The position numbers were made by a program, and so were the translations under genes. A model generated the notes under the pieces. It saw only the letters and a list, made by a program, of their open reading frames with translations. It was not told the DNA's origin and searched no databases. Below, piece by piece: positions 5,851 through 62,828 of a stretch of DNA of 64,000 nt; positions within the stretch are counted from its first letter, which is position 1, and every line of letters starts with the position of its first letter. The stretch covers positions 21,284,536-21,348,535 of the forward strand of contig NC_067198.1 of the NCBI RefSeq assembly GCF_000699445.3, read 5' to 3'. This stretch comes from Schistosoma haematobium (Eukaryota; Platyhelminthes; Trematoda; Strigeidida; Schistosomatidae).

Positions 5851-5894
5851 CAGCCGCATTGGAAAAGGCATTGTCGAACGAACCTTTGGGCGAG

Positions 5895-8800
5895 ATGGAG
5901 CCCCCAACCAAGAGGTATGCCATACGTTCATATGATGACTGTTCCAGGCAATGTTTTGATGATGTATTAGATTTAAGTCGAAAGTCTAACCATGTTACTA
6001 ATGGCAGTGAAAAACTTTCTAGCAGGGTAAGTTATTATTTTGCACTCACTTCTGCAGAATGATGATGATGTTATTATGCTGAGTGAGGATGAGGATGATC
6101 GTCTACTTGGGTCTCTCTGTGATGAAATGGAAAAAGAAAACGCTCCCAAGCAATCACTTCTATCCAAGTCGCGTGCATTTCTTTTAAAACTGGAAAATGA
6201 ACTCAGAAATGAAGAAAGTGCATTGGTTTTGCTTCAGCAGTTACGAGCCAATCAACGTTCGCATGCATTACAGCCGAAAAGTACAAAAGTCTCATCAAGT
6301 GTAACAAATACAGTTCGTAATACACAATCACCTGTAAACCAAGGTACGTGTTTATTATTTATTGATTTCACTTAGTTCGGCCAGCTGTCAGCCAAGCTGT
6401 TATTAGAAATGTCCCGTCAACAACTGGTGGTCGTGCAACACTATGTAAGTTTCTCAAGGCACTAAATATCTTCTCATTAGCTCCAGCCCAAAACACTACG
6501 GCGGTAAATCCAACAAACGCGACGGCAATAACGAAAGTAACTAAAGGAATGGCTATCCACGCTCTCGAACAACAATGTAGTGGTAAAAAAGCAGTGCTTC
6601 GGAAGCAGTTAGAGAGAACGCTAGATAAAGTTGTTCTTCCAAAGCCTGCCGTGGGAAATGGATTGTCAGTGGTGCCTTTTGTTCCAAGCACTTTGACAAA
6701 TGAGTTTACTGCAATGATAGGCCTTGAGGAAATCGTAACCACCATACAAGTAGGTATTTTAATCTGTGGTCATAAAGTAGCTTTCTTCCTATTTGTTTTC
6801 AATAACTTTGTGTGTAACGGATGCGGACGAATAATTGAGTTCGCTATTTCCGGTAGCTCCTGAGGTCTTAATGTCAGGTTACCTCCCTTTTGGTTACTTT
6901 CTGGCTTGCGGGCTATGCTAAATCTTATGAACGCAATGTTGGCTTTGTTGCAATCAAGTCTAATGATGATAAATATACCTCATTTATTTGGGTGGTTAAG
7001 GACGGGTAGTTTTTTCTTCTAAAAACTTTCGTGAGTTGAGCTTGTCTGATGTTACCCAGTCCGAAACATGATGTTCTACGTTGTGACTGACTGAAACATG
7101 AGGCTTCTAACACAGTTCCGAGCCACTTTGAAAGGCCATGTATTTAACAATGACCCGACATATTGCTGAATAACACAAATTTATTTGTCCCTATTCGGCC
7201 TTCATGTTTTGCTTTGAAGATTATTATACCAACCGAGAAAGGGGCAGTACGTTTCAAACATGGAACCTTATTAAGTCGGTTGTTTTAACCACCATCATCC
7301 CGAATGAGGACTTTGAAGCTGCTGTAGAAAAGTTAATAGTCGGACCTAAAAGCCGATAAGCACGCGAATGAAGGGCGAAAAGAAAGGAATCAAATATCCT
7401 TAGAGAAGTACAGACAGTTGGCACTTGCAGGTCACTTAGAATTGTGAAGTCTCATATTTTAGGAATCTTGAGAAATGTAATGGATACGTGGTGATGATGC
7501 TGTCGAACTAAGTATATGGTCTCAGAAACCGGTGTATATCTGTCTGTAGTTTCCAACACAAGGTATTATTACGAGCATTTGCTTATAGATTTGTGATGCT
7601 AGTATTTTCAAAACCTTATCACTAATATCAGGAATTCGCGAAGCAAGCCAAATTTTTAATTTTTGATAAACATCTTTCCTAACTCATGAGGAAAGACAAA
7701 TTGAATTTAATGTATTTTTATGGGACTAAGTAACCGTGAGAAGCCAACTCAAACCAATCCTTATTGATTTTCTGGGCTGTTTTGTTTATATACCAGGAAT
7801 TTATTATTTCTTTACTCGAAGAGTTATAACTCATTGTTTATCTCATAAATTGTTTACCTTAGTTCTTAAGTTGAGAATTGTTGGCAGTAAGGTACATAAA
7901 TCATTACTTTTTGTCCCCATACCAGTGTCCTGGATCAATATAATCCTCACTGGCTCTGAAGAGTATCATGCTTACACTATACTATCCCCATCAATAATGT
8001 ACTTTTTTCCTTTCGAAAGGAGGTACATAAGCTAATATCCTTAAGGGATGAGTTTTACCACCAGTTAACAGTTCTTCAGGTACCACCGAGGGTGGGGATA
8101 ATCCACTCTCCCTCTCGAAATGCTCTCACATGACGACGCGTATACAGCCACTGACAGGTAACTCCCATTCACTGACTTCTCGCGAAGGGGGTGTTGTTTA
8201 CAAAATTGAGAGGACGGAAAGCGAATGTCGGACGTTTTAACCGGGTTGGTATGCATGGAGAGTCCACCTAGGGGAGTTGGAAAACCCGGATTCAAAACCA
8301 GTGGTGCACATGGGCTCCAGTATCTTGAAGGAACAAATGGCGTGTGAACCTATTGTTGGACATCGGCTACGACGGGACTGCATCTCCTTACGATGCTCCA
8401 CTGCCCTGTGGATTAGACCTTCAGGTCCAAAACTCCGGGTGTGCCCCCCTAAGAAAACCACCTGCTTTGGTTTGGCACCCGGGCAGTATCACGGCCCTCG
8501 CACAAATCAAATGAGATGTGTGTGGCCCATATGTATTTGGTGCCCCTTTATACCAATATTTATGTGTTCAAATAATAATAATTTTCTACAGAAAGTACGT
8601 TCGACATAAATTGTAGTACTAACCGGAGACTTGAATGCTCAGGTCGGGCGCCTAGGCACAGAAGAGTCATTTAGGTGGCTGATGAGCACCTGCTGGTCCC
8701 AGGTCAGATAACGGTGACCGGCTACTGCAACTGTGCGCAGACCACAACCTGTTTTTGGTTAGCACTAACTACCGGCGCAGTCGTCACCGATGTGCCACCT

Positions 8801-11800
8801 AGTTTCCTCCCTCTGCACCTCAAGCCTGAACTCAGATTGATCACATCTCGATCAGCTACTGCTGGCGTGGTTGTGTACAAGACTGCCCTTCCTTTTAGAG
8901 TACTTATCTGGACTCTGATCATGCCCTTGTCTGCACTAATCTTACCTTTTCAGCGGCCAACAAATTCATCGTCCTAAACCGATCGATGCCAGTAAATTGG
9001 TTCCAGCTCCTGTTGCAACTAAATATCAAACCGAGCTAAGTTCAAGGATGGCTACCATCCCATCGAAAAGTATAGATGGGCATTGGTTGCAATTGCATGA
9101 CGCCATGAAAATAGCGAGTAAAGTCACTTGCCCCTTCGCGAAACGTCCCGCGTATAAGCACTGTATTTATCCGGGCTCTTTACAAGTCATTGAATCCCGT
9201 TAGTCTACTCCAGGTTACCGTAAGTTTGATCACAAACGACGTCTGTTACGTAATGAAGTTGGGCAAAGCTTGTGTAAGAACCGAGAAGCCTAGTGGTTGG
9301 AGTGTGCTAATGAGTTGGAAGCAGCAACTGCACCTGGTAACTTCCGGAAGCTCTTCCAACTCATCCGAGTCACTGGCAGCAAGAAGCCTGGTGTGAGCGA
9401 AACAATCTGTAAAGATGGGGGATGCCAATCACCAACATTTGTCGATGTCTTGGATGATGGGCAGAGTTTTTCGAAGAGCGGTTCAACTGGTCTGCTACCT
9501 CAGCAACATCGATCACACTGTTCTACTCTCTGTGGCCTGTGACGACTGATTCACCTAACGGGGTGGAAGTCCGCAAGGAACTCCAATTCTTGAAGCGCTA
9601 CAAATCAACGGCCCAGATGACTTACCTCCGGCCCTTTTTAAAGATCGTGGTAACTTTCCGGTTAAGGAACTGACTGAGATTTTTTAAGAAAGGTTTGGCA
9701 GTTAGAGAGTGTTCCAACATCATGGAGTGAGTCGACAGTTGTCGCTATCTTTAAAATGGGTTCACGTGGTTTCTGTAACAACTATTGCGAGATAAGTCTA
9801 CTTCCGATTGCGTCTAGACTATTTGCTTCCGTCATACTTTGTAGATTGTTCAAAACCTGAGGAAGATTGACTTGTGAGGAGCAGGCTGATTTTCGATCTG
9901 CTCGAGGATGTATTGACTATATCTTCACCCTCCGCCAAATGTTAGAACACCGTCATACTTATTACAGGACAACAGTCGTAGTGTTTCTTGATATCAGCGC
10001 TGCCTTCGATTCGTTGGACGGGCTGCTCTCTTGAATTGTCTATTGGGGAGCATCACTTTATTGTAACTGTGAGTATAATAAAGTAAAGTTTCAATAATTA
10101 TTAATCCCAAACTTTCTAATTGGGTATTTGTGGCTGAGAAAAGTGTTGATCTGATTTTCCTCTGTGGATCTTTCAGACAGTTGACCTGTAAAAACCTTGT
10201 TCTAGTAATCTAACTACCATCGCTCAACATTCGTAATTTATGTGTCTTCTCAACTAGGTCACTTGATGTTTCTTAAATGTTCATTTTTTAACTTGGGAAG
10301 TTTATCCTCTTATCCAAAGTTTCTTGTTGTGCATTAAAAACCAATTTCCCCAGTGAATAATGTTCAACTGTCCACTTTTTTTGACGAATGAAGTTTACCT
10401 GAAATGCTATTTAAATAACTCAAATTATTTGTACATTATAGGACTTCGACCCATTGAGCACGGATAAGAGTTCTGAACAATCTCGCTTTGTTAACCCATT
10501 CTCATGTTCACGTTGTGGTACGGACTTCACACCTGTTTGGAAACGCAAACGCCCAGGCTCATCTGAAGTTGTTTGTGAAGCCTGTATAGTTGACAGTCAG
10601 CGTTCAGTCATTCATAAAGCATACAGTAGTGTTATTTCAGCTGCACTTAAACAGCACGCTGCTTCAGAACGTGAAATCGAGCATGAATATCAAGACGTAG
10701 TCAATTCACCAGCTAAGTTGGAAGCTTTTATTAAAGAACATGAACGTAAGCTTCTGGTTACTCAACAAGCTCAAGTAGCCCAACAACAGCAGCAACAAAT
10801 GCATCAAGTTGCTTCAGCTACTGGCTTACATAATCAAAGGTACCAACAACAACAGCAAGGGTTCCAGTCTCAGGTAAATTTTCATTAAAGTATTTAAATT
10901 TCAAGTTTTATTGATAACAGTTATGCCCTAGAGTATTAAAGCTAAGAGCTAACATAATATCTTTGGAGTTTGCGTTGAAACTTCAGTTTTAATAAAAACT
11001 GCTTATTATACTGCAACGACTAAAAGATTAAATTTTCTGACGTTTCGTGACTTAGTGCAAGCCAATTCAGAAAATAAACTAACAGTCAAATTAAACTAAC
11101 TGAAGTTCGTTTGGTAAAAAGGAACAAAACAAAGATATTTACTACATTCAATTAAAAGCATATCTGATCAAGTCAGCGTTATGTTACTACGGTCAAGGTG
11201 GTACATGTATATTTGTGTGTGTGATAATGATGTGAGATATGATAGCTTGGATAAATAGTCTATTTCGGATTGATGGTAAGACCTTTCAGTTTAAAAAATG
11301 AGCTACTTTGTTTTGTTAGATCCGAGTTTCTATTCAGATATTTTAATAAACGTAAGATTAAAATTTGGAAATCGTAACTGTCAGGGAAATGATGGCTGTT
11401 TCCTACTTGCAAAAGATGCTTTGTCATTTCGGTAATGTTGTTCTGTAAGTTTAGAATAACTTTCCGAAGAGTGTAGTATTTGAATGGACAGCTGTTTCCA
11501 ACAACTTCGCCAGCAGACTCTACAATCATAAATCAATGATTATTGCGCTACTTTACAAAGGCTAAATTAAAGCATGTCTGTGAATTCAGTAATGCTATAT
11601 ATTTGTAAACTACCGGAATCTAGTATTGTCAATGCAACTGACTGAAGTCCAGGATCTTGTATATCTACGTCTAAAGTGTCTGTGTCCTCTTAGAAGGAGT
11701 TTGGGCGCTCCGATTTTTAGCAATAGAATAGTGAGTTTGAACTTGGTTCTATCTCAAACAGCTTGATGAAGCAGATATGACCTTTAGTTCTTATACAGTA

Positions 11801-14800
11801 ATTGTTGTTTTTTAACGTTTACATGTCTCTGTGTTCTTGTACTAAATAGCACTAACTTTTAATTCTCATGATTAGTCATCTATAACTAAATTATTTAAAA
11901 TTAATTGGAATATAGGTGAATAGTCATGTCTATGTTCAAGTGTCATGATAGATCAAATGTCGTATTGAAGAGCAAGATACTACATGAGTATAATCTCAAA
12001 AGCATTTACGATGGAGTATGATACCTATCTCGTAATGTTTTTAATTTCCTTCCCTCGGTAGAATCTTCATAGTTTCTTAGTACTTCCTATTTAAATTGTA
12101 CTGATAGTGCTTACTGAATTAATTATTCTTTATTTATTTATTTGAACACATAGATATTGGTATAAAGGGGCACCAAATACATATGGGCCACACACATCTC
12201 ATTTGATTTGTGCGAGGGCCGTGATACTGCCCGGGTGCCAAACCAAAGCAGGTGGTTTTCTTAGGGGGGCACACCCGGAGTTTTGGACCTGAAGGTCTAA
12301 TCCACAGGGCAGTGGAGCATCGTAAGGAGATGCAGTCCCGTCGTAGCCGATGTCCAACAATAGGTTCACACGCCATTTGTTCCTTCAAGATACTGGAGCC
12401 CATGTGCACCACTGGTTTTGAATCCGGGTTTTCCAACTCCCCTAGGTGGACTCTCCATGCATACCAACCCGGTTAAAACGTCCGACATTCGCTTTCCGTC
12501 CTCTCAATTTTGTAAACAACACCCCCTTCGCGAGAAGTCAGTGAATGGGAGTTACCTGTCAGTGGCTGTATACGCGTCGTCATGTGAGAGCATTTCGAGA
12601 GGGAGAGCGGACTCTCCCCATTTGAGAGTGAATTAATTCTTCAATCATAAATTAAGCTATGCCAGTTGACTAACAGTTATTTTGAATTTTGAAAGCAATA
12701 AACTTAAGTCGTTGTGAAGGGAATTAGAACGTTTCAAATAAGCAAGCTAATTTAAGTTAATAAAATTACTGGTTTACTGATCAAGTATAAGTTATGTTTT
12801 TAAAAGAGAAAGTCCTAAGTGTTTATATGTTAAGTCACGTAACAAAGATGTTCTGTAATGAGTTTGCGTAATATACCATATTTTAAAAGTTTTAGGACAA
12901 CGCAAACTTGTATTTTGTCATCTTATAAAGCTTAAGAAACTGCCTTCATAATATATCTTGATGTATTCCCATAAACTTAGAAGAGATTGATGAACCCTGT
13001 TATATAGTGCGACTATAACTATGAATATATTGATCTATTCAAAGAGTTCTAAATAGCTTATTAATCCAACTGCACTTAGTGGTTGGTCATGTTTTTATTT
13101 ATCGTTTGTACTCAAAAATAAACATTAAGAACGTTCTGGGAGATTTTTGTGATGCGTTTTTATTAATTGGAGTATCAAGTTCACTTAAGAAAAAATTAGA
13201 TCGTCAGTTGTTATATCGATGTTGGCTGCGATTTTTTTCAGTCAGCCAGTTATGCACAACGTAGAACTTAGCGCATACATTGACCGATTCACGATGTCAG
13301 ATACGGTGGCAACGATAGAACCACGTTTTAGTTTGGGAGGTATTAGTATACAGAATATATCTGCATGAGACAGATGTTCAAGCAAGTAAATAATCAACAC
13401 CTCTTCATTCTTATGTTGATTAATATTTACCGTATTAAAAAACCCTACTCATGCTTAGTCTTTTTCATAAGACTCAGATCATCAATCACATAGTAGACAT
13501 TTAAAGTTATACATATAAGTGTACTAAGTTGTTACTCATGAGTATATTAGCCAACAATTAGTTCAAAGCAGGATTAATGTACTTTGATCTAGTCAGTCAG
13601 ATAGTATCTCCTCGACACAGTAAGTATTGCTCTAAACCTGGTGAACTATATTTCGCTCGTTTGCCAGATTATGTATAACTAGGATTTCGAATCAGTTATA
13701 ACATGCAGTTTGGTTTTCAGGTTGGTTTTACTCCGTTCTGTCTTTGTAATAATTTTGTATTTTTACACAGAATGTATTTAATACTGCTGGTAGCTCAAGG
13801 CATGGACAAACAAATGTGGTCAACAGCGCTTCCTCATCTCAGTTAGGAATGCCAAATGTTTCGTCTCGTCGACAAACTACATCCAATAACGTTAGCGTCA
13901 GTTCTCCTGTTTCCTTACCTATTCAGCAGCAGGGACATGTAGCAGGAAATGTTGTTCAGCAGTTGGCATCTCGTTACCAACAACTTACAAAAGCAGCTGT
14001 TGCTGCAGTTGTTGGTGGTGGTCAAAGTCCGGTTAATCATTCTGTTGCTAATAACGCTGCCACTGCCAACTTGATGATGACTGCGGCCGCAAATCCTATG
14101 CTTGCAGCAGCGGCAGCAGTTTCGGCAACTAATCAGCAACAGCAATCGGTCGCCCAACAACAGTTAACTGCTGCAGCATTGGCACAACAAAGGCTAGCTG
14201 CAGTAGCAGCTCTAAACTTCCAGCATCAACAACCACACCACACACAACCTTCAACTGGAGCTGTAACACCTAATTCACCCATTGATCACTTAGCTCAGTT
14301 TACGCAGATGCAGACATTGTTAATGAGCAGTCTCTTGGGAAATGCAGGTATATTTTATCGCTTATGTTTATTATCTTAATCTGGATATTTTTATTTTAAT
14401 CTCTGTCCTTAATGCAAATTGTCTTGTTTTTCGTGTGACTTGGGTAATTACGAATAACATTTCCAAACGACTTTTATTGCGGACTCTGTCTCAGCAACAA
14501 TAAGTTAGCCACGTTTTTCTGTCTATCAATTGCTCTGATCTTACTTGTGAAAGGTCTGTAGATTCGATTTATCTCATAAGTTCTATGGGGGTTTGAGCGT
14601 CCTTTCCAAAGTACAAATTTAACTTGGGTCTGATTGCAACTGTTCTTCATAGTATTGGGTGTAGTCTTTCTATCAAGATATACTCTTCAATTTGTGGTCG
14701 AAGGACACAAATTCCGCATGTTCGAACTCTGCTTTCGTTCGAAAAACCGGATAGTAACTCTGTTCTTTACACCAATAACTGACTACATAAACATTTACCT

Positions 14801-15722
14801 GTTCAACCATTCGACCTTGCAAAGTGTTGCCTCTGGTCTCCCTGTACCCAGCTGCAGATTACGCTAAGATTGTCTTATATCAGACAACGGAATTCCAAGT
14901 ATCTATGCTATCCATCCTTCAAAATCCACTTTTCAAGATTTAGTTGTGAATTCTCTAGGTTTCTATAATTGGCATACAATTGATCTTAACAACAGAAAAT
15001 AAACTTCCTAACTACATTCAACTATACAGTAATTCATATCATAGTTGAGTGGATGAGATTGCAAAATCTTGGAGGAATCGGGATACATGATGTTTGTTCA
15101 TAGTCTCCGCCTGCACTGTCACTAAGTGCAGTCCTAGCAAAATGAACGAAAGAGTGAATAATGTTTTCTAAATTTCAGCTCAAACAGGCAAATAAAACTT
15201 TCTACTTCAACTGTCTCTTTTTCAACCATTTATTTTTAACGTCTACTATAGAATTCTAAGTACTTTAAATATGCAAACAGAATTACATGTAACACTAATC
15301 TAATTACTGATAGATTTTGTTATTTCGGACTGTGCTTTTTGAAGATGCGTCATTGTTTTTGGTGTTAATTTGTGTCAAAGAATTCTAATACTTTGATAAG
15401 TGGTGATAAAAGCTGACTGATATTCATTTTTATCTTTTTCAACAATAATTCAGCTGCTGCTACTGGGGCGCAAGCAACAGCTAATACTAGACAACAACAA
15501 CAACAGCAAATATTGCAGCATGCACTTTTACAGTACACCTACTTACTACAACAGCAACAAGCTGCTGCAGCTGCACAAGCTCAACAACAACAAAATCAGC
15601 AAGTTAATGCTGCCGCATTGCAACAGCTAATGAGCGGTGCTGCAGCTAATCCGGCAGCGTGTATGACCTTGTTACAAAATTTGTGGGCACTAAATGCTGC
15701 GTCAAACGGTGTTAAAAAGTAG
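5895..15722 (+). CDS. GATAD2: p66/GATAD2 subunit of the NuRD chromatin-remodelling complex (7 exons)
   Basis: Exons: 5895-6026, 6058-6343, 6376-6444, 6481-6749, 10442-10873, 13771-14347 and 15454-15722 (TAG stop). All introns are GT-AG and phases match, giving 2034 nt, 677 aa; human GATAD2A/B are about 590-630 aa. Residues about 80-112 (LENELRNEESALVLLQQLR) match p66 CR1, the helix that pairs with MBD2/3 in NuRD; it is preceded by the acidic DDVIMLSEDED. Residues about 229-252 carry NEF...GLEEIV, a p66 signature. A GATA-type finger has C274, C277, C297 and C300 around TDFTPVWK, followed by the helical stretch typical of p66. Exons 6-7 encode a Gln/Ala/Asn-rich, probably disordered tail. The ATG at 5895 is the first in the exon beginning at 5857. 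The frame stays open upstream, so an additional 5' coding exon is possible. In the nucleus p66 helps join the deacetylase and Mi-2 modules of NuRD; this is family knowledge. Confidence 0.9.
6027..6480 (+). other. Three consecutive micro-introns of the p66 gene
   Basis: Introns at 6027-6056/6057, 6344-6375 and 6445-6480 are only about 31, 32 and 36 bp. Each starts with GTAAGT or GTACGT and ends in TTCTGCAG, TCACTTAG or CTCATTAG. Frames on both sides agree and join into the conserved p66 N-terminus. Very short introns at the 5' end of genes are a known schistosome trait. Confidence 0.85.
8041..10055 (+). mobile_element. Degenerate RTE-like non-LTR retrotransposon in p66 intron 4
   Basis: Translated pieces in shifting frames show an APE endonuclease: GDLNAQVG from about 8623, then an IDHIS-like stretch and LDSDHALV near 8840-8940. 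A reverse-transcriptase N-terminal part follows, with GCIDYIFTLRQMLEHRHTY and VVFLDISAAFDSLD at 9900-10020. Many stops and frameshifts make it a relic, and it ends abruptly within RT near 10055. The 5' side begins near 8041, where GATGAGTTTTAC matches the EN region of the element at 38.2-41.1 kb (about 39265). The element is interrupted by the retroposon at 8080-8583. It lies in the same orientation as the host gene. Confidence 0.75.
8080..8583 (+). mobile_element. 504-bp SINE-like retroposon, copy 1
   Basis: This block is nearly identical to the reverse complement of 12125-12628 and shares its 3' part with 58339-58460. It ends in an AT-rich tail (GTTCAAATAATAATAAT) and is flanked by an imperfect 8-bp target duplication, TTCTTCAG (8072-8079) and TTCTACAG (8584-8591). 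RTE endonuclease coding sequence continues on both sides, so it inserted into that relic. Open frames of 75-110 codons on both strands are conserved between copies, but that simply reflects high identity; I see no known protein. No clear pol III box A/B was recognised, and its autonomous partner is unknown. Confidence 0.8.
12125..12628 (-). mobile_element. 504-bp SINE-like retroposon, copy 2 (inverted)
   Basis: This is the second full-length copy, on the - strand in p66 intron 5. It is bounded by a perfect 10-bp target duplication, TGAATTAATT at 12115-12124 and 12629-12638. The 3' end (left side on the + strand) is an (ATAA)n-type tail. The first about 35 bp differ from copy 1, and the remainder is nearly identical. 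High identity and an intact duplication suggest a fairly recent insertion. With copy 1 it forms a long inverted repeat around the GATA-finger exon. Confidence 0.88.
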
Positions 15723-17049
15723 TGTTTTGATATCGTAACTTTATTCCTAATTTAATGACTTCACTGTTTTGTGTGTCGATTTGCTATTGATATCTCTATA
15801 TTTCTATTATTTGATTAGCTCATGTTTCAGTTTGCTGTGCCTTAGTGACTACAACGCGTACAGCGTACTTTAACACAAATCAATCGTTTATTCTAGGCTG
15901 TTGTTAAATTTTTTTACATCATCCACCGACTAGTTTACTACGTATACCCAAATTCTGGTTCTTTAAAACCACTTGTCATTTCCTTTTTCTACATTGTACA
16001 TATCTTCATAAATTCGTCGTATTGTTTCAGTTTCATTTGCTTTATTAATGATATTTTTCTGATTTTTCAGTGAACATATCGTCTTGCAAATTGTCACTTA
16101 CAGTTGTTTTCATCCTATCTGGTCATGGGTTTAGTTTACAACACTCCCTGGCTTATTTTTGGTTTTGAGCATTGTGAGGAAGTAATAGATAAGTTCGGTC
16201 TGCTTAACGGTGTAGGGTCTTTCCAACATGCCTGCAAACTCCAATGTTGGTGGTAATATAGTACTTCAGGTACATTTAAAGTCTTCTAGTTGTCTCTTCT
16301 ACATTAGGTGGTGTTAAGGCAGAATGTTATTTAGAATTTTACGTTTTCATTGCTGTCAAATAGGTGAAAGGTTGTTGTTTGCTAATTTCCTCTATATCTG
16401 ACTCCAATAAATGATATCCCGTTAACTGAGTATTTTAGGTAGGCTAAATCTAGTAGAATTACAGATTTACTCGAGATTATTCAGAAGCCTGAACACCAGT
16501 TGTAGAGATATTTTTATTGTTAAAGATAAATAAAATTCACAAGCGTACAGCGAGCAAGCACACTGTGAAACCAAGAGTGTGTGTGTGTGTTAAAAATCCA
16601 TATATATTTTTGAGTGTCAATCAAGTGTGGATAAATTATTGATTATCTGTATGTTACAACCAATAGGAGAATATATTAAGGTTGATGTGCAGACACGCGC
16701 TCAATCATACACACACAGAAATTAATATAGCGAATTAAGTGTCTGAATTACAGTGAGTAGACAAATGATACAATAGTTGAATGGGCTTACTACAGGTAGT
16801 GTGAAGATATGTGTGTCTTGTGATCTACGTCGAGGCACCTTAGCTTCTTAAATTACATGGCTGCTCGTTGCTCCACTCGTTTTTGCGCACAGTATCCTAA
16901 CGTGAATGTGATCCCACGTGTTTTTTTCGGCGCTGGACTCGAACAGCATTTTGGAATTCGTTAATGGTCAATTTAGGATGAGCCATTATAATTGTCAGAA
17001 ACACGAAGTTCAGCGAAGCGATCTCTTCGATGATTTTATTATAATACTA

Positions 17050-33926: not shown

Positions 33927-36800
33927 ATCAGTCAGTCAGTCAGCTACAACGTAGGACCAGGCACATATATGCATCGGTCCAAGTTGCCATACCTCGTTAA
34001 CACAACAAGATGGACACCGGATTTGTAAAAGTAGTTAATTCAGAGGTGGTAATATATAAAAGAAAGATAGCAATAAGGATATAGTACAGGAGGAAAGAAT
34101 TAGTTCGTAGAAAGAAAAATATAAAGCAATTTTAATCTCATGGTTTAAGGGAAGACAGAGAGTGTATACACTGACGCCATTGTGACCGGTTCTGAGCCAT
34201 GTCACCAAGAGTCTCCAACCATTGGTTACGATAGTCACGTGGACCCCAACCAAGTAGTCTGCATCTACCAACATGGCTCAGACTAGAAGTTAGTGACTTC
34301 AAGCACTGATGCCACGTTTTGGTTTGGCCGCCCCTAACTTTCTTCCAACCATCTCCAACACCGGTTAGCATCGCGCGTCGTGGTATCCGGTGTTCGGGCA
34401 TGCGTAACACGTGGCCCAACCATCTCAGTCGATGAAGATTCACAACCTCATCAACTGATTTACCATCATTCCCTAATACCCTGCATCTAACTTCACTATT
34501 ACTTACCCGGTGATCCCAGCAGACGCCAGCAATATTTCTAAGGCATCTGTGGTCAAATACTAATAGCTTACGAGTGTCTTCTACTCTTAATGGCCATGTT
34601 ACGCTGCCGTAAATTAAAACAGAACGGACTGCCGCGCAGTATACTCGTCGTATTTTTTATAGACGGATATCTCGCCTTCGCCATAGGTGACGTAAGTTGG
34701 CAAAAGCCAATCGAGCTTTTCGAATCCGTGCTGAGATTTCGTCAGACACCAACCCATTAGGGCTGATCAGACTTCCAAGATAAGTGTTGTCAACGCGTTC
34801 GACTACTTCATTCCCTATCCTTAGTTCAGGTGTTGACGCAGACCAGTCCTGAAGCAGCAGCTTGCATTTAGAGGGAGAGAAGCTCATTCCAAACATTCTG
34901 GCATTGTTGCTTAGTGCTACCAGAAGACTCTGCATTTTGTCAGCGTCTTCACCAAACAGGACTATATCATCTGCGTATTCTAAGTCGATAAGTGGACCTC
35001 CTGGAAGGAGATCAATACCCGAGAATTCAGTAGACGAGAATGTTATTTCCATCAATAGGTCTATGATCAAGTTAAACAAAAATAGAGAAAGTGGACAGCC
35101 TTGACGGACACCACTTGAGGTTGCAAAAGTAGATGACAGTTCGCCATAAGCTCTGACTCGACTGGTAGTGTTCGAGTAAAGAGCCTTCACAAGGTTTATG
35201 TACTCCTGAGGTACGCCTTTCAATGACAGACACTGCCACAGAATCTCGCGGTCTACCGAGTCAGATGCTGCTTTCAAGTCAAGAAAGACCACCATTGTCG
35301 GACGTCGATAAGTATGCCTGTGTTCTAGAACCTGACGAATGGTGAATATGTGGTCGATGCAGCCACGACCAGGTCTGAAGCCAGCTTGATTCTCTCGTGT
35401 TTGCAGTTCACGAGTCTTAGTTAGGTGTCTGATAATTATCGAGGCTAGTATTTTAGATACTATATTAGTTAAACTAATCCCTCTATGGTTGTCACAGGAT
35501 GATTTTAACCCTCTCATATATTGTGACGATATGTGATTGTGACCAGTCAGATGGAATAACGTCTAACTCCCAGATCTTAGCTAAAATATTAGTCAACTTA
35601 ATCGCTAAAATTAGACCACCATCCTTAAAGACCTCTGGAGCCAATCCATCTGGACCAGCTGCCCTTCCTCGTTGCAGATTAACTATAGCCTTTTGAACTT
35701 CTGCTAGAGTTTGGGGACCTACTTCAATGTTCCATTCACACTGTCTGAGAATGGAGGGTAGTTGTAGAGTAGCTGAAGGCCAGCTGAACTGTTCCCTAAA
35801 ATGTTCCGCCCATCGTTCTAAACGTCTGGACTGGGAGCAGATGAGAGTATCGTCTTTTTCCGAAATAGTCTGACTCAAACTTGACTTATTAATTCCAGTT
35901 TCTTTTATTATTCTGTAGAGCTGTCTTGTGTTCCCTATAGCCGCCGCCATTTCCATCTCTTTCGCTTTCGTTGCCCACCACTGCTCACGGTCGTTTCTTA
36001 GACTTTTTCTTAACCTAGATCTGATTTGTTGTCGCTCTTCATCGTGTTCAGAGCCTGATGGGATGAGTTTACAAGAATCTATCAGTGCAACAGACCTTGA
36101 GGAAATCCATTGGTTCTTTGTAACCCTGTGGTTTAAATCACTGATAGATGTCACTGCTGTTTCCACAGCTGTTTGTATGGCTTTCCAAGCAACAACTGGG
36201 TCAACCTCGTTTTCAGAACTATCTAATTGTGACCTCAGTTTTTCCTGGAACCTACTTTTGGTTTTCTCGCTACTCAATTCAGTTCTAATGGGTCTTTTTA
36301 CTGTGGCTTTTTTGCGTCCAGTGAGGCGCAAGCAGATGCGTGTCCGTATTAGGGCGTGGTCGGAGTCCAAGCAGGTACTCCAGAATGAGCGACAATCTTC
36401 TACCGACCCTCTCCAACGATGACTGATGGCAATATGGTCTATTTGAGTCCATCGTTGGTTTGGTGTAGGGGGTCGCCATGTTAGACGATGTCTCTCCTTA
36501 TGCTTAAAATTTGTGTTTGCTAAAAATAAGCGATTCTCTGAGCACAGTTGCAGCAGATCACCATTATCTGTTCGTTGTGCCGGAATACTAAAATACCCAC
36601 CTAAATGCCTTTCTGTTTGGTTTAAACTACCTATCTGGGCATTAAAGTCACCTGCTACGAGTACTATGTATGAACGTTTAACTTTCTGGAGAAGTTCAGA
36701 TAGCTTTCTGTAAAATTCATCTTCCACTTCATCTGAGCTGCAGTCGGTGGGAGCGTAGGCAGAAACGACTTTTCCACTATGCCAACCGATTTCTGATAAA
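33927..36800 (-). mobile_element. RTE-like retrotransposon A, nearly intact but 5'-truncated
   Basis: On the - strand the frame 36808-35492 (438 codons) covers endonuclease and linker: [19 protein letters not shown] and SDHALI are the APE motifs. A frameshift near 35500 leads into 35517-34657, the reverse transcriptase, with [47 protein letters not shown] and the catalytic [11 protein letters not shown]. One stop near 34657 separates this from the C-terminal segment 34443-34138 (LHRLRWLGHVLRMPEHR). The 3' UTR ends in a (TCAG)n array at 33927-33943. The N-terminus of EN and the 5' UTR are missing. One motif-A change, ASDSV for AFDSV, probably also damages RT. Confidence 0.88.
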
Positions 36801-37618: not shown

Positions 37619-40600
37619 ATGGCTGAGGACAGCAGTGGGCTCGGTTACCGACTGGAGGAAATCCAGTCAAGTATTGCAGAGGGAAGGTTAATGCTTAACG
37701 TTCTTCGTTCCCTTCCAACCACTGAGGTATTTGGAAACTGAAATTATTTGTTCAGAATAATGATGCATTCATAGTTCGTTTCGAGGATCTAATCAGTAGA
37801 TTAGAAAACTATCAACTTCACAACAGAAAGAGCGAGGTTTGTTACATTTTTACGTGATTTCTGGTGATTTAGGTGAAAGATGTAAAGTTACAGTTGAGGA
37901 CACTTAAGGAGCAACAAGACAGAATTCAGTCTCTCCTTGGTCAGACAGCGACGAGTATACAGGTACATATGAGGATTTCGGATTTATTAACCAATTACCA
38001 AAATACATTAACCATGTACTTACATTTCAGTATTTGCTGTCATGCTTTTAAGTAGTGATTGCTGAATTGTATTTATATTGTCAGCTCTATCTAATTTTCT
38101 TGGTACATCGAATTTCGTAACCTTGTTGATTTTCCATATAAAAAGAAATCATCCGACCGAAGCTGCTACCTTGACGCGGTGGTCGGGCTTGTCTATCGTG
38201 ATGACCCAACCGAGCTATATTGGCTGGAACATATGTTCCTGTAGGTTCTACCATGCCAGGCAGGTCGATTGGAAAACGGTAAGACTAAAAGCAGCAACTC
38301 AAGGTCTGAGGGCAAAGTCGTACTACTGACTGTAGAGGGGTGTGACAGCAGTAAGGTGTTTCCCTCGGACAACCAGCATCTGCAGCGATGCTGCCTTCCC
38401 ATAAGGAGGGGCGGGGTTGGAAAAGGTCGACCCTAAAAATGTCACACCTCACCTTACCTCACTGATTTCCGTCTCTGGCGGTGAGGCCCTTTGAAGAACA
38501 CATTAAAAACCTTCCACGAAAAGGCCGTGCGCGACGGGCCTCAAGTAGTTGTCCCTTGGGCTCTGCGGTCACGCTCCCAGGTCGTTAAGACCAACACTAA
38601 TCCGACTTCTATTTCAGGTTTCTCAAGAAATACCCTTCCACGGTGTGGGCAGCCGGGAAGTGATATCAGCCATCATACCCGTAACAGCACAAGAGACCAA
38701 GTTGGTCACATTCAAATCCCTCCTACACCTCCTAATACCTCTCTTATCTCCATGACTAACCCTCCTCACGTCTCTATCACCTCGCACCGCTAGGGCAAAC
38801 GATTCGAGTACGCGGAACGTTATTCCTGGTCTCCTGAAACCACTCTCTAAACTACACGTAGGAGCTTTTGACGTCCGAACACTGTGCCAAATAAGACAGC
38901 AGGCTTCCTTAGCTAAGACTTTAGAATCTCGCGCCATGGATGTGTGCTGCGTCTCCGAAACGCGCATACAGGATCCGAGTAGCGTCATTCACTTGACCTC
39001 ACCATGCCAAAATAAAGAACCGACTCGATTCACACTTCGTGTATCTGAAAGCCCTGATTCTGCTTCCCATGGCCTCTCCGGCGTAGGTATGGCATTGAGT
39101 CCTAGGGCAGAATTAGCTCTCTTAGAGTGAATCGCAGTAGACAGTCGTTTGTGCGCTGTCCGACTAAACGGAACAGTAAGGATTCGAAAAGATAGAGACA
39201 CTCGTCGTTGCCTCTTCGTCGTCTTTGCCTATTCTCCCACTGACTGCAGCTCAGATGATGTAAAAGATGAGTTTTACAGAAAGCTCTCCGACCTTCTCCG
39301 AAAAGCTAGGCGCTCGGGTGTAGTAATAATGGCCGGTGACCTTAATGCTCAAGTAGGTAAACTAAGCGATAGAGAAAGACACCTAGGTGGATCTTATAGC
39401 ATCGTGGCTCAAAGAACAGATAATGGCGACCGTCTGTTGCAGCTATGTTCAGATAACCGCCTGTTCCTTGCAAATACTAACTTTAAGCATAAGGAAAAAC
39501 ATCTTTTAACATGGAGACCCCCTAATTCGTCCCAACGTTGGACCCAAATAGATCACATCGCTATCAGCCACCGCTGGAGGGGCTCGATAGAAGACTGTTG
39601 CTCATTCTGGAGCACATGCCTAGATTCAGATCATGCTCTAGTACGAGCGCGTATCTGTCTGCGTCTTACCGGACGTAGGAAAGACGCTGCAAGGAAGCCT
39701 CTTAGGGCCCTACTTAATGATAGTCAAGCTAAGAGTATATTTCAGGAACAACTAGGAAAACAGTTAGGCAGCCATGTATGTGATGGCCACCCCGACGCAG
39801 CGTGGAACGATATCCGGAAAACTGTGGAAACAGCAGTGATATCTGCTAGTACGGTAACCCGTAAGGTTAGGGAGAAACACTGGATCTGAGCAGCATTTAT
39901 CTCACTGATAGATGCTCGGAAACTCATTCCACCTGGCTCTGAAAATAATGAAGAGCGGAGTCAGCTTAAGCGCAAGCTGACAAGAAGTCTACGCAATGAT
40001 CGTGAACAGTGGTGGGTAGCGAAAGCAAGAGAGATGGAAATGGTAGCGGCAATAGGTAATAGCAGACAATTGTCCAGACTTGTTAAGGAAACCGATTGTT
40101 AGCGAAACACTCTCAGAGAACGATGGACATATTATACATTCTCAATCCAGGAGATTGGATCGATGGGCAGAACACTTTAGGGATCAGTTCAACTGGCCTT
40201 CAGCCACATTTCTGTTTCCCGCGATCTCCAGTCGACCTGAATGGTAAGTTGATGTAAGTCCTCCAACTCTTTGCGAAGTTGAAAAAGCTACAGGAAATCT
40301 GAAGCGTGAGAGAGAGGCAGGCTCTGACAGGTTTACTCCTGAGATTCTTAAGGATTGTGGTCCAGTATTAGCAGCGAGATTGACTGAGGTCTTAGGTAGG
40401 ATTTGGGAACTGGACGTAATCCCATCTGACTGGTCTCAATCGCTGATTGTGCCAGTCAATAAGAAAGGACAAAAGTCCTCTTGTGACAATCACAGAGGAA
40501 TCAGTTTGACAAATATAGTGTCTAAAATATTAGCTTCAATAATACTTCGACGCCTAACCAAAGCTCGTGAAGAGCAGACTAGAGAAAACCAGGCTGGTTT

Positions 40601-43600
40601 TCGACCTGGACGTGGTTGTATAGACCAGATATTCACACTACGTCAGGTTCTAGAACACAGACACACGTTCAGACGCCCCACAATGGTAGTATTTCTCGAC
40701 ATTAAGGCGGCATTCGACTCTGTTGATCGTGAGTTTCTATGGCAGTGTTTGTCACTGAAAGGAGTACCAAAGAAGTACATTAACCTTATAAAGGTTCTCT
40801 ACTCGAACACAACTGGTAGAGTAAGAGTTTATGGCTAACTGTTATCAGAATTGATTACTTCAAGTGGTGTTCGTCAGGGCTGCCCACTCTCTCCATTCTT
40901 GTTCAACTTTGTCGTCGACGTACTTTTAGAGATAACACTTTCCTCGTCTAGATTTCCAGAGGTTGAACTTCTACCGGGAGGTTCACTTGCTGACTTAGAA
41001 TATGCTGATGACATAGTTTTATTTGGTGAAGACGCTGACAAAATGCAGAGTCTTCTACGTTGTTACTGACTGACTGACTGTAGTTAGCATCGTTTTACAA
41101 ATGCCTCAGTTGTAAATTCCACAACACTTAGTCTAAGTTTCATGATTGCTATGTTCAAAATATTGTTTTCATAACTATTTTGCGTCCCCATGTGGTCCGC
41201 CAGTTAAACATCGAATTGGTACTTCTCATTGTGCTCATTTTCACTACAATTATGGTTCTTATTCATTTAAATTAGTAAAAGTCACTACTATTTTACTGTT
41301 TCCACTGCTTTAGCGTTACTGGCATCTGGGTTTGAAGTTGTTGTCAGGGAAGCAGTTAGATTTACTTCGTTTCTTGTAAATTGTGAAGGCATATTATTCT
41401 AATAATCTTTTGTTCAAAATGTATAGGTTGGATTAAAATTGTTTCTTCTGAAAGTTTGAGCATCCTCACTATTAGACGTAGGCAGACATTTTTATTAAAG
41501 CCTCTTGTGAATTCGGTTAATGCCATGTGTTCAAAGCGTCCCTTCAGTTTCTTGTCAGTCTGGAGGTCCATTAGTTTCTTCTGAAGATGATAATTAGCCG
41601 CCTGTATCAAAAGGAAGTGTAAAGGTCGCCAAGTCAAACTGTTATTCAAATGCTTTGAAATCTTCGGGACATCATGAAAACTCATTAGTGAGGACTAAAA
41701 CCTGCCGACCGTATTCCTAAACTGGTTCTTGTCGGTCCTCTTGTATAATGTTGGGAAATTAGTGTATTTAAGCTTCTCAAGTTGTTTGGACACTGGATTA
41801 AGTTTGGTTTCAAACAATATTTGACAATAAGTGATTCGCATTGTAGTTTACCTGATGGTGGGCTTTTAAGTGAATGGTAGAAGTCGTAAAATTTCGTGTT
41901 CACTTACGAATGAAGTTGTGCCTTCAAATAAAGCTTGTTCTCATTGAGTTTGGACTCTCCTCACCCATGTTTATCTTAAAGCCGGGAGTTCAGTTATATA
42001 GATACTTCTAATAATTCATTGTTGTGTTTTAATATTTGATTCACGTTTATTTACTGAAGGGTATTTATGCTTTCTGTAGGATTCTAGTTTATCTGAAGCA
42101 CCCGGTGGGTCTTCCAGTGATACTCAAGCAAATGTAGTGTTTTCGAATTCCGCATCAGCACTGCTTTCCAAATTTGAGACCTTACTATCCAATGGAAACA
42201 ACCAAGGTTGTCAAAAAGATGGTGATCGGGTTTCTTGTAATATTAATTGTTCACGCAACTTTAAACCAAAGCAAGAACCAGCGGATACTACCCAAGAAAA
42301 CGATAAACTATCAACCCTTAACACTAAGCAATTGTTGAAACCTCTAGATTGTGAAGAGTCGACAGATTTATCGAACCACTCTGATGTAAGTTTGTCTAAT
42401 GTCAAATAATCCTTAATTTTTATTTTGAGTAGCTGTCAGGTTAAGTATTCGGAAAGAATGTTTTCTTACTTTTATACACTTGTTTAGTATTTGGAACTTT
42501 CTATATTCCCTTATGTACAGCGTTGGTAAAACACTGGGCTCTGGACTAAGAAATTGCAAGTCCACTCTTCTCCATATACTTCAGCTTGAGCAGTCATATA
42601 ATCACTAAACCTCATACAACGTACTGTGTAGGTAGTCCTGTACTTAATAAGTGAGCTACACTGCCATCAATTTCTACTTTCATCCAGAGATAATCAATTT
42701 AAGCCAACTAACAAACTGAATAGCTTTATGTATAGTCTTTTTAAATTATATTGGAACCTTGAAATGCTGATTTTACGTTTAAATTTCGTATTTTTTTTTG
42801 TAATTTAGATTCATCTGTCTGAACTACAGAAATTGATTGAAGAATCAGAAAGATTTGATGAGATGGTTAAACGACTTGTATTAATAACAAGGAGAGCAGT
42901 AAGTCGTTTGAGTTGACATCGTTGTGCTAATCAGTCAGTTAGTCAGTCACATGTAACGTGGGACTTGGGACATGTATGCATCTATTCAGGTTGATACACT
43001 GTTAGCGCAACGAGATAGAATTGTCATGGCAAATCATAGAACAGATGTAGCAGTAGTAGTGGCAGTAGAAAAGGTTAGGCATGTGGTTCCATAAGATATG
43101 GATTTGTGGGATGACTGTCTTTTATCGTTATTTATTCCTTATTGCGTTCTGTACAATAAGGATTCGACTCTGAACGAATTCATCTTCAATTGTGTTTGTA
43201 TCCAAAGAATAGCTACCCAGATGTTTAGTTCAGTAGATATTGATTTTGCATTATCTAGTTAAATAAAAAATTTCAAACGTGTCACGCGACTAGTTTATTT
43301 CATAACTACAAGTATAAGACTTCGTGAAGCTTCATATCCCGTGTGTCTTAACAACGCAGTTGTGAAACCTAAAAATTTATAAAGCAAAATGTCATTAGTC
43401 GATGGATTCATTGACAATTGGACTAAACCGTGTTATTAGATGTAGACTACCTGGTTGGGGTCCGTGTCATTATCGTAACCAGTAGTTAGAGACTAAGTGG
43501 CATGGCTCAAAATCGCTTGGAATGGTTCACGTGCATCCACTCTTCGTTTCTTCCCCAGATTCTATGCTTCTAAATTCCGCATACATTTCCTATTTCATTA

Positions 43601-57638: not shown

Positions 57639-59310
57639 TGAGTTGTGCTTGTTGTTGTTCGTGCTTCTGGCTGCTTGTGGAATACATTTTCCCTCTTTCG
57701 AACATCTTTGTGATGCCCCAATCAGTAGAAAATTGTATTTCTGATATTTCGTGACCTAGTCTAAGTTACTTCTTTAGAGTAGATAACTATCACTTCCAAC
57801 TTTGGCCTTGACACTTATAAGCTACTTGAAGAGTTTGAAATATCATATGTTTGATAGCTTTTGACCAGAGAAATTTTCAGTATCATTCACGTGCTTCACT
57901 CCTATCAAGATAGTTTTGAATAATTAGTTACAACAAAGTTGTCGTTTCCTAAAATAGTTTCGACAAGATTCAACGATATACTTAAATATATTCCCTGATT
58001 CGTAGCCTGAGAAGTACAAAAACATTTAAACAGTGAACAGTTTAGACCTTAATATGAAATACAATATCTTTTGGGTAATGTATTCATATCGAACCTCGTC
58101 ATTTATAATTGAGTTTTCAGTTAGGCATGACTAAATCTCAAGATACAGTGAAGGAAGTGGCGCTCAGTAGTTGTTATTTCCTATCTTCCCTTAATTTTGA
58201 AAGTGAAAGACTTTTATAATGATTATTTATTTGATACATATGAGGGAATGCAGGTCAAGACAACCACTATAGCGGAAACCTCAACATGCACAAGGAGAAA
58301 ACCAAGATCTTCAAATACAACACGGAGAACAGAACACCAACGTGCTTCGGTCTGGGCACCCTGGGCAGTATTATAACCCACACACAAATTAAGTGATTTG
58401 TGTGGCGCATATGTATCCGGTGCCCCTTTGTACCAATATTTATATGTTCAAACAAATAAACCCGATCACACTTGATAGAGAAGCTCTGGAAGATGGGGTG
58501 GAAACTCCCGTACCTGAAATGCATCATCGATAAACAAAAAGGATCGAATGCAATGTAAAGATAAGGGTTGGTGACACAAGGACAGCATTCCTGCAGTTGA
58601 AGAAAATATAGAACTCTAAAACAACTGTCAACCAACATCAAAGTCAAAATCTTCAGTACGAACGTCCAGCAGTCCTACTGTACATACAAAGCTGAAACTT
58701 GAAGAACTACTACAACCGTCATCAGAAAAGTACAAGTATCTATAAACAACTGTCTCTTCAAGATACTCAATGTCCGTCTGCCGGATGCCATCAGCAACAG
58801 CCTACTGTGGAAGAGGACAAATCAGCTTCCAGTTAAAGAAGTTAGGAAAAGATGCTGAAGGTGGATAGGACATACATTTAGGAAATCCTTAAACTGCATC
58901 ACGAGGCAAGCGCTAGCTTGGAATCCTAAAGGGAAATGGAAAAGAGGATGATCAAAGAACACTGCGTTGGGAATTGGGAGCAGACATTAAAAGCATAAAT
59001 AGGAACTGTAAAAAACTAGAAAGGACTGTCCATGACAGAGCTTGATAGTTAATGCTGGTGGGCGGCCTATGCTCTTCCACGAAGAGTAACAAACGTAAGT
59101 AATATTATGTAATATCGACTTATTGTTAGTTATCCTGTTTGTCACTCATATATATTTCATCTATTTAACTAGTTTTTGTGAATTTAATTTTATATGTAGG
59201 TCAAAGACCATCTGTACAAACTGCATCTATTCCGAGCTCTGTTTTACTAACTGATCCCAGTGTGAATCTTACGTCGCCTCATGGTTCTTCTATCGGTCAA
59301 AACAACATTG
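37619..59310 (+). CDS. Large coiled-coil protein, PCM1-like centriolar-satellite scaffold (partial, at least 17 exons)
   Basis: Exons: 37619-37726, 37756-37836, 37873-37962, 42080-42385, 42809-42898, 44293-44385, 44841-44888, 45117-45227, 46481-46589, 46753-46926, 48423-48513, 48734-49103, 50231-50540, 53074-53556, 55039-55448, 56655-57036, 59200-59310. All junctions are GT-AG and phases agree, giving at least 1122 residues; no stop has been reached. Start: ATG at 37619 ([15 protein letters not shown]). Predicted coiled coils are exons 1-3, 5-8, residues about 360-403 ([14 protein letters not shown]...[12 protein letters not shown]) and about 445-470 ([19 protein letters not shown]). Another helical stretch lies near residue 825. 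Serine-rich linkers separate them. The [10 protein letters not shown] and [14 protein letters not shown] stretches resemble PCM1 (about 2000 aa in human), which organises centriolar satellites. That identification is an inference from pattern; the gene itself is well supported. A further exon may start at 59736. Confidence 0.7.
37727..37872 (+). other. Two micro-introns of the PCM1-like gene
   Basis: Introns 37727-37755 (29 bp, GTATTT...TTCAG) and 37837-37872 (36 bp, GTTTGT...TTTAG) separate the first three exons in phase 0. Reading through the first would meet a stop (TGA at about 37738), supporting its removal. Confidence 0.8.
38155..41083 (+). mobile_element. RTE-like retrotransposon B with internal deletion, in intron 3 of the PCM1-like gene
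   Basis: The element starts with a GC-rich 5' UTR (about 38155-38480). A region of short frames follows, then APE endonuclease starting near 38860 ([16 protein letters not shown]) and continuing in 39149-39889 with [19 protein letters not shown] and SDHALV. RT is in 40380-41069 with [47 protein letters not shown] and YADDIVLFG. Stops occur at about 39889 and 40838. Shortly after YADD (KMQSLL) the sequence jumps straight to the terminal CTACGTTGTTACTGACTGAC tail. About 1.1 kb of RT C-terminus and 3' UTR, present in element A, is therefore missing while both ends remain. It is in the same orientation as the host gene. Confidence 0.85.
42525..42720 (+). repeat. tRNA-like SINE fragment
   Basis: GTTGGTAAAACACTGGG followed by CTGGACTAAGAAATTGC and AAGTCC resembles a tRNA-derived head with decayed A and B boxes. 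The downstream CAGCTTGAGCAGTCATA recurs in diverged form at about 61260-61285. No hammerhead was seen. Confidence 0.4.
42925..43080 (-). mobile_element. 3' terminal fragment of the RTE A/B family
   Basis: CAGTCAGTTAGTCAGTCA followed by a segment matching 33930-34025, the 3' UTR end of element A, in the same orientation and about 80% similar by eye. Only the tail is present. Confidence 0.6.
43430..43900 (+). mobile_element. 3' fragment of the RTE A/B family, sense
   Basis: Translation near 43440 gives [14 protein letters not shown] followed by LET, matching CRLLGWGPRDYRNQWLET in element A, and continues into the 3' UTR. An open frame at 43522-43875 is UTR-derived and is not regarded as a gene. 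It sits in intron 5 of the PCM1-like gene. Confidence 0.65.
47032..47077 (-). ncRNA. Decayed hammerhead ribozyme motif
   Basis: Same position in the SINE as the motif at 29574-29619. Core TGAGGA and GAAA are recognisable. The base before TGA is A, stem II pairing is partly lost and the GUC cleavage site reads TGC, so it should be inactive. Confidence 0.6.
47153..48258 (-). mobile_element. Merlin DNA transposon (IS1595/IS1016-type transposase)
   Basis: Inverted termini of about 24 bp are GGCGAGATTATAATTTATGG (left) and, on the - strand, GGCGAGACTACAATTTATAG (right). They are flanked by imperfect 8-bp duplications GACCACTG (47145-47152) and GACTATTG (48259-48266), as expected for Merlin. Length 1106 bp. 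Merlin elements are known from Schistosoma and other animals. Confidence 0.9.
47265..48190 (-). pseudogene. Merlin transposase, frameshifted
   Basis: On the - strand the pieces in order are: a cysteine-containing N-terminal segment (SSFICDCG, about 48100); 48052-47603 with [18 protein letters not shown], giving the first catalytic [21 protein letters not shown] near 47530, giving the second D; and 47489-47265 with [16 protein letters not shown] and [18 protein letters not shown], giving the catalytic E. The DDE residues are intact, but frame shifts near 47610 and 47490 and at the N-terminus break it. Family: IS1595-like DDE transposases. Confidence 0.85.
48612..48665. repeat. (AAT)n microsatellite in intron 11
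   Basis: About 18 AAT/ATA units with no interruption inside the 220-bp intron 48514-48733. Confidence 0.95.
49469..49524. repeat. (TA)n microsatellite in intron 12
   Basis: About 56 bp of pure TA. Confidence 0.95.
51978..52045. repeat. (TA)n microsatellite in intron 13
   Basis: About 68 bp of pure TA. Confidence 0.95.
57589..57635. repeat. (TA)n microsatellite in intron 16
   Basis: About 47 bp of pure TA. Confidence 0.95.
58230..59100 (+). mobile_element. SR2-like RTE 3' fragment in intron 16
   Basis: Translation in shifting frames gives [18 protein letters not shown] near 58280, then [13 protein letters not shown] near 58580. Near the end come [10 protein letters not shown] and RWIGHT-like pieces at about 58850, then NWEQTLKA and a [15 protein letters not shown] stretch (LVGGLCS in another frame). 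The 3' end is CGTAAGTAA near 59095, an RTE-type tail. Many frameshifts. A SINE-like insertion interrupts it at 58339-58460. It matches the same RTE group as 25185-28205 and covers a part that copy has lost. Confidence 0.78.
58339..58460 (+). mobile_element. 504-bp retroposon family, 5'-truncated copy 3
   Basis: Matches the last about 125 bp of 8080-8583: TGGGCACCC.GGGCAGTAT, then TTTGTGTGGC.CATATGTAT, GGTGCCCCTTT.TACCAATA and GTTCAAACAAATAAA. RTE coding sequence continues on both sides (NTEN before, ITLD-like LDREALEDG after), so it is an insertion. Truncation at the 5' end fits target-primed reverse transcription. Confidence 0.75.
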
Positions 59311-62075: not shown

Positions 62076-62828
62076 GGCGAGACTCTAATTTATAGACGAG
62101 CCAATCAGAGGCGTTTTAGAGATTTCATGGTTACGGCGCCAACTTCAGTGCTTAATGCTAACGTACGATCGGTTCACAGGGATAATTGAGCGGCTATAAC
62201 AAATAAAACGGCGGGACTATAATTTGTGGACGAATCAATCAGGTATAAGATAATAGATCTCGGATTTTAACGCGAAAGCCTTTCATCCATTTGGCTAAAT
62301 AAATTTCTGGCATTATAGCTGATGTCAGTTCGTGATGAAAACCCCATATATAATTCGTAACTAAGGCAAATTACGACAATCATTGCGAACTGGATAATAA
62401 AAGCACCAGTAACACTGGCTGCAGCCAGGTAGTACATTATATACGGATGTTTGGAGAGCGTACTGACTCCTACATAGTCTTGGTGATGTGAATCGTGTCG
62501 TTATCCACAAGTAGCATTTTGTGCACACAACAACCGGAGTGCACATAAACAATATTGAAGCTATGTGGTCGAGGCGGAAAGAGTTTTTGAGACTTTATCA
62601 TGGCTCCAAAGGTCGACTATTCTGTAGCATGAATTACGATTTTAGAACCTCTGAACCTCTTTCTAACCCTGATAAGTTTTCGAACCACGTATAAGAAGTG
62701 TATCCACTTTATTTCCTTGGTTTTGTATAACATATTTTTACTCTATGCTGACTGTTTGCTGATTGGCTAATATTTCTCAAGGTTACTTAAGATTCGTTCA
62801 AAGGTCGTCCATAAATTATAGTCTTGCT
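62076..62828 (+). mobile_element. Merlin transposon relic with two tandem 5' ends
   Basis: Flanked by a perfect 8-bp duplication GAAACAAT (62068-62075 and 62829-62836). Termini are GGCGAGACTCTAATTTATAG on the left and, on the - strand at the right end, AGCAAGACTATAATTTATGG. Bases 62076-62208 match the 5' end of the Merlin copy at 47153-48258, up to the first transposase codons. At 62210 a second terminus begins, GGCGGGACTATAATTTGTGG. Transposase remnants are a LRTG-like stretch near 62390, TDVWRAY near 62445, then NIEAMWSRRKEF and YHGSKGRLF near 62550-62640. The region around the first catalytic D is deleted, so it cannot encode an active enzyme. Confidence 0.85.

Follow-up and report, generated by a model that had tools for sequence, protein, structure and literature searches.

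In a 64,000-nucleotide (nt) stretch of Schistosoma haematobium DNA, hereafter the window, the exon encoding the GATA zinc finger of p66 (GATAD2) is enclosed by two independent insertions of one retroposon of the short interspersed element (SINE)-like kind, which lie in opposite orientation, are complementary almost to perfection and flank an exon whose symmetric phase permits its omission in frame. The layout is a testable candidate for the kind of arrangement described around exon 6 of the hominoid gene TBXT: the two arms would pair in the precursor messenger RNA (pre-mRNA), a minority of transcripts would skip exon 5, and some exon-5 circular RNA (circRNA) could be formed, the proposal as a whole being put forward tentatively, with a likelihood a little short of even. 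The initial annotation of this DNA had pointed to the inverted pair and suggested that it loops the exon out; the observation has been confirmed, and the interpretation is partly supported.

The inverted retroposon pair around exon 5

The window contains the p66 gene of a schistosome, whose joined exons give 690 residues and whose closest relatives among the matches listed are the models of S. bovis, S. curassoni, S. guineensis, S. margrebowiei, S. intercalatum and S. mattheei (94-99% identity). Exon 5 (10442..10873, + strand, 432 nt) has AG/GT borders, no stops in frame 0 and phase-0 junctions on both sides, and the finger is recognised by Pfam PF00320 at residues 287-315 (E 1.8e-5; 24.7 bits, slightly below the cut-off of 26.8). 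Exon 4 (6481..6749, +) ends in phase 0 at ...ACCATACAA|gtaggt, and exon 6 (13771..14347, +) opens with AAT|GTA..., in frame with exon 4 when exon 5 is omitted, so that the finger content, length and phase ascribed to the exon, as well as the preservation of the frame on skipping, were all borne out.

Intron 4 (6750..10441, +, 3692 nt) contains copy 1 of the retroposon (8080..8583, +, sense to p66) and an older long interspersed element (LINE) fragment, while intron 5 (10874..13770, +, 2897 nt) contains copy 2 (12125..12628, -, antisense to p66). The two copies, which had been described as near-identical inverted repeats, align without gaps in opposite orientation over 8093-8575 and 12138-12620, with 479 of 483 positions identical (99.2%); the mismatches are at 8099, 8101, 8105 and 8560, and the run 8106-8559 is perfect over 454 nt. 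The arms are 3562 nt apart, with 1858 nt between copy 1 and exon 5 and 1251 nt between exon 5 and copy 2. Within the bounds of about 504 nt, the outer 13 nt (5') and 8 nt (3') of the two copies mismatch, their first 5' nucleotides and their tails being unlike.

The arms are two independent insertions, because a perfect 10-nt target-site duplication flanks copy 2 (TGAATTAATT at 12115..12124 and 12629..12638, both +), and copy 1 has a seven-of-eight duplication, with TTCTTCAG on the left (8072..8079, +, imperfect) and TTCTACAG on the right (8584-8591), and interrupts a LINE. A common 10-mer or longer was found in 5 of 4000 random 30-nt pairs, and a match of seven out of eight at a fixed position in 0.07% of 200,000 random pairs; the exact-word search around the ends of copy 1 gave 4 nt in common at most. 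The 504-bp bounds given in the initial annotation are therefore right for copy 2, both ends of which are abutted by the perfect duplication, and only plausible for copy 1. The interrupted element is an older, decayed fragment of a retrotransposon without long terminal repeats (non-LTR), covering an endonuclease/reverse transcriptase region (8584..10041, +, 57% to the LINE at 36693-35228); its coding sense, as read by eye, continues on either side of copy 1, which appears to have been inserted into it. An assembly echo or a tandem duplication of one locus was ruled out by the unlike flanks, tails and target-site duplications.

The retroposon has the traits of a SINE-like non-LTR element, namely target-site duplications, a short-repeat 3' tail (of the (AAAT)n type in copy 2), several copies and 5'-truncated copies, such as the third one in the window (58331..58460, +, 81% identity), which lies outside p66. 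A coding element was ruled out by stops in all six frames, the longest open stretch being 112 codons. Used as a query, this stretch gave 11 matches, all of them parts of short gene models: nine from S. margrebowiei and one from S. rodhaini, at 58-83% identity, and a last match at 53%. Set against the 58-83% spread of the relatives, the near-identity of the arms points either to young insertions or to homogenisation. The strict consensus scan of copy 2 for a tRNA-derived SINE found two A-box-like matches and no B box, with GATTCAAAACC in the retroposon differing, by eye, from a B box in one letter; a scan of viral contigs with a 22-nt word of the retroposon gave no matches.

The schistosome Smalpha retroposon carries a hammerhead ribozyme. 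A retroposon of that type, or another RNA family, was rejected here, as no Rfam family, hammerhead included, matched in 6000-15500 up to E 1. Smalpha is named as a SINE-like schistosome retroposon in PMC8293314, and the Sjalpha hammerhead appears in a reference title of PMC3409120 (these and all the other sources cited here are drawn on in excerpt). The p66 retroposon is, like both of them, a short non-coding Schistosoma element; however, as far as these descriptions set them apart, it differs in its length of about 504 nt, its lack of a hammerhead and the (AAAT)n-type tail of copy 2.

The strong pairing potential that had been expected of the arms was reproduced by folding: the predicted duplex has -1017 kcal/mol, compared with -145 and -155 kcal/mol for the single arms, while the control pairs drawn from introns 4 and 5 (n = 14, after 16 of 30 draws had been discarded for overlap with an arm) reached -166 kcal/mol at best, with a mean of -147. 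Such modelled energies show a capacity to pair, not its occurrence. In 6000-15500 the repeat scan found no inverted repeat of at least 30 nt besides the arm pair, by which competing inverted repeats in introns 4 and 5 were rejected; no tandem repeats were found in the same interval. Across the whole window, seven inverted pairs pass E<1e-10, and copy 2 forms one of them with the third copy at 58 kb. Inverted element pairs are thus common as such here; what makes the arm pair exceptional is its identity, the only one above 90%, against 57-81% in the six others.

A proposed looping model and its precedents

In the proposed mechanism the arms would pair in the pre-mRNA into a duplex of about 480 base pairs (bp), with exon 5 held in a loop of about 3.5 kb. 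The duplex would bring the exon 4 donor close to the exon 6 acceptor and would weaken the use of the exon 5 acceptor, which has 10 pyrimidines in 18 positions, the fewest of the seven acceptors listed (12-14 in the six others), a weakness that would itself help skipping. In a minority of transcripts exon 4 would then be spliced directly to exon 6, with the frame kept, to yield p66 without the GATA finger, and some exon-5 circRNA (432 nt) might arise as a reciprocal or competing product. As to circles in the genus, 2636 circRNAs have been reported from S. japonicum (Giri 2022, cited in the review PMC13029200). An exon-5 circle would have a length that is a multiple of three, one in-frame methionine and a stop-free frame 0, and would therefore carry an endless reading frame.

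The closest precedent, by analogy, is TBXT, where inverted AluSx1 and AluY elements on either side of exon 6 cause in-frame skipping in hominoids and both arms are required (PMC10901737). As in TBXT, the gene codes for a nuclear regulator of development, a single in-frame exon has an inverted non-LTR retroposon in each neighbouring intron, and the predicted stem traps the exon in the loop. The p66 arms are longer (483 vs 297) and more alike (479/483 vs 228/297) than those of TBXT; the retroposon is a different one, the host is a flatworm, and the p66 case is known from DNA and gene models alone. In the TBXT work an identical 297-bp non-Alu pair led to more skipping than the Alu pair with its 228/297 matches (PMC10901737), and the arms described here should, by the same token, be potent. 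Back-splicing is promoted by pairs of inverted Alus in introns (review PMC11263572), and the layout resembles these in that complementary repeats in both flanking introns enclose a single exon; a difference is that p66 has one pair, and that no inverted repeat competing with it was found in 6000-15500.

The GATAD2 coiled coil acts with MBD2 to bring the CHD3/4 remodeller to the nucleosome remodelling and deacetylase (NuRD) complex (PMC7736783). In the window protein the coiled coil is matched by PF16563 at residues 100-124 (E 2.9e-4; 20.9 bits, below the cut-off of 26.4), outside exon 5. The short p66 would retain the part corresponding to this MBD-binding coiled coil, and from the domain match it should still bind MBD proteins and lose the role of the finger region, as a partial NuRD subunit that might act as an inhibitor. 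The planarian p66 has been reported to suppress the regeneration of photoreceptor neurons (PMC5011480), and a natural finger-less p66, if true, would separate the regeneration role from the NuRD-recruiting one. The TBXT authors suggested that more cases might come to light if such layouts were searched for globally (PMC10901737); a flatworm case in a NuRD subunit, with longer and more perfect arms, would provide a clean test of the rule outside mammals.

Gene models with and without the finger

A public gene model of S. mattheei (P0012, 521 amino acids (aa), on a 48.5-Mb contig) corresponds exactly to the protein expected from skipping: exon 4 is joined directly to exon 6, in frame, from ...TTIQ to NVFN.... 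It is identical to the window protein at 518 of 521 aligned residues and is shorter by 144 residues, i.e., by one exon 5, than the 665-residue model P0004 of S. margrebowiei. P0012 may represent a true isoform, an annotation slip, or an inverted or missing exon in the assembly; literature searches for the annotation method behind it found none. With the predicted junction already present in one public model, existing RNA sequencing (RNA-seq) data may be enough to settle the question. The isoforms predicted for S. haematobium, 14,700 in number, reportedly all have RNA-seq support (PMC8846543).

Several observations weigh against the skipping proposal. The first alignment comprised 26 models, mostly from trematodes, out of 120 listed of 148 p66 matches, and the informative ones were taken to be the 20 that span exon 4 and exon 6; the finger is missing in P0012 and kept in the 19 others, which implies that the annotations usually show the full-length protein. 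Eleven more flatworm models formed a second alignment, in which the finger is kept in all eight tapeworm models spanning the region, as it is in the monogenean P0033 and in S. japonicum P0123, while the partial model P0121 stops before the finger. P0012 as a query retrieved 34 matches with no second exon-4-to-exon-6 model among them; 25 are in the first alignment, and the nine others, all in the second, comprise seven tapeworm models and P0123, which keep the finger, and P0121. The arms are also further apart than in TBXT (3562 vs 1448 nt for its main pair), and since the TBXT pair spaced by 4188 bp made a minor isoform only (PMC10901737), a partial effect would be expected here. Finally, a long duplex may be unwound, or edited, before it has any influence on splicing.

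In these counts a missing PF00320 label was not taken as a missing finger, as the models P0006-P0008, P0015, P0016, P0019 and P0022 lack the label, yet have the finger when aligned. In P0022 (Opisthorchis viverrini) the finger is present and the later part of exon 5 is missing; P0020, from a separate 11.5-kb contig of S. mattheei, ends within intron 4 and is uninformative on exon 5. The 288-aa P0123 joins an unrelated short start stretch to exon 5, hinting, from the model sequence, at an alternative start upstream of this exon.

The same 19 models suit a passive account, in which the arms are two recent insertions, inverted by chance, whose removal by splicing has no measurable consequence, and P0012 is a mistake of annotation. 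Inverted pairs are, as said, common in the window (including one of 77.5% at 47154-47578 and 62420-62827), and introns 4 and 5, the longest visible in p66 (the first three being of 31-36 nt), would be the likeliest landing sites for insertions. However, a random slip would need to strike exactly the in-frame exon between the arms, and none of the other six inverted pairs comes near the arms in identity. This account is a serious contender, rated somewhat below an even chance.

A fate of the duplex outside splicing would be its conversion by Dicer into endogenous small interfering RNAs (endo-siRNAs) against the retroposon family, or its editing by ADAR, with splicing hardly touched. The arms are perfectly matched over 454 nt, the Ago2-associated endo-siRNAs of adult S. 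japonicum were reported to derive mainly from LINE and LTR elements, with one Dicer gene reported (PMC3409120), and planarian ADARs suppress a response to double-stranded RNA (PMC8797187), this being the one useful study that literature searches on schistosome editing brought up. However, P0012 would be left unexplained, and such a role is considered unlikely.

The arms could act at the level of DNA instead. Long near-perfect inverted repeats are, as is generally known, substrates for inversion and gene conversion. Recombination between the arms would invert the 3.5-kb block with exon 5, and carriers would splice exon 4 to exon 6, P0012 coming from such a chromosome. Three of the four arm mismatches fall within the first 13 nt (8093-8105; P 8e-5 under an even spread), as if the interior had been homogenised and the cluster marked the edge of a conversion tract, and a conserved 432-nt exon in the right orientation would rarely be missed by a gene predictor. 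The cluster may, however, simply reflect a variable 5' end of the retroposon. The duplication of copy 2 is still complete on both sides in the window, and the LINE fragment is still divided by copy 1, from which it follows that the present arrangement is uninverted or has been inverted an even number of times. The inversion is therefore regarded as quite improbable, and slightly more improbable still is its extended form, in which gene conversion homogenises the arms, the DNA switch is reversible, and populations carry an allele coding for finger-less p66 only, the source of P0012.

Other features of the gene and the window

Ten of the 11 matches to the retroposon peptide were read. The retroposon parts of these related gene models are mostly N-terminal, and in six of the ten (P0127, P0128, P0130-P0133) they break off at one shared place, after RRLG or RRLR (QRLG in P0133), and continue with model-specific sequence; the four others read past it. 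A GT in copy 1 (8439..8440, +, context CTCCGG|GTGTGC) is a possible cryptic splice donor, and copy 1, being sense in p66, could offer it within intron 4. The shared break is treated as a lead only, because a gene predictor may make the same mistake each time it meets the same repeat.

The remaining p66 exons listed for the window are at 5854-6026, 6058-6343, 6376-6444 and 15454-15723. The first of these contains an intron-like GT...AG stretch of 33 nt (5915-5947), which is absent from most of the related models. The 5' part of the gene falls outside the window; no exon of the THAP domain known from relatives lies within it, and the N-terminal portion is convincing only for residues 132-151, at 5853-5912. 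Among the matches listed, an N-terminal THAP domain (PF05485 label) occurs in many flatworm p66/GATAD2 models, both trematode and tapeworm (P0001, P0007, P0009, P0013, P0016-P0022, P0025-P0030, P0032 and P0034), and likewise in a Dreissena model (P0116). A THAP-p66 fusion would supply NuRD with a second DNA-binding head.

Elsewhere in the window, the LINE copies at 34922-36769 and 39218-41056 are inverted to each other at a distance of about 2.4 kb, with 71% identity over 1854 aligned nt. Between the two members of the 77.5% pair (47154-47578 and 62420-62827, aligned over 432 nt) lie long open frames at 48.7-57.2 kb that resemble another gene.

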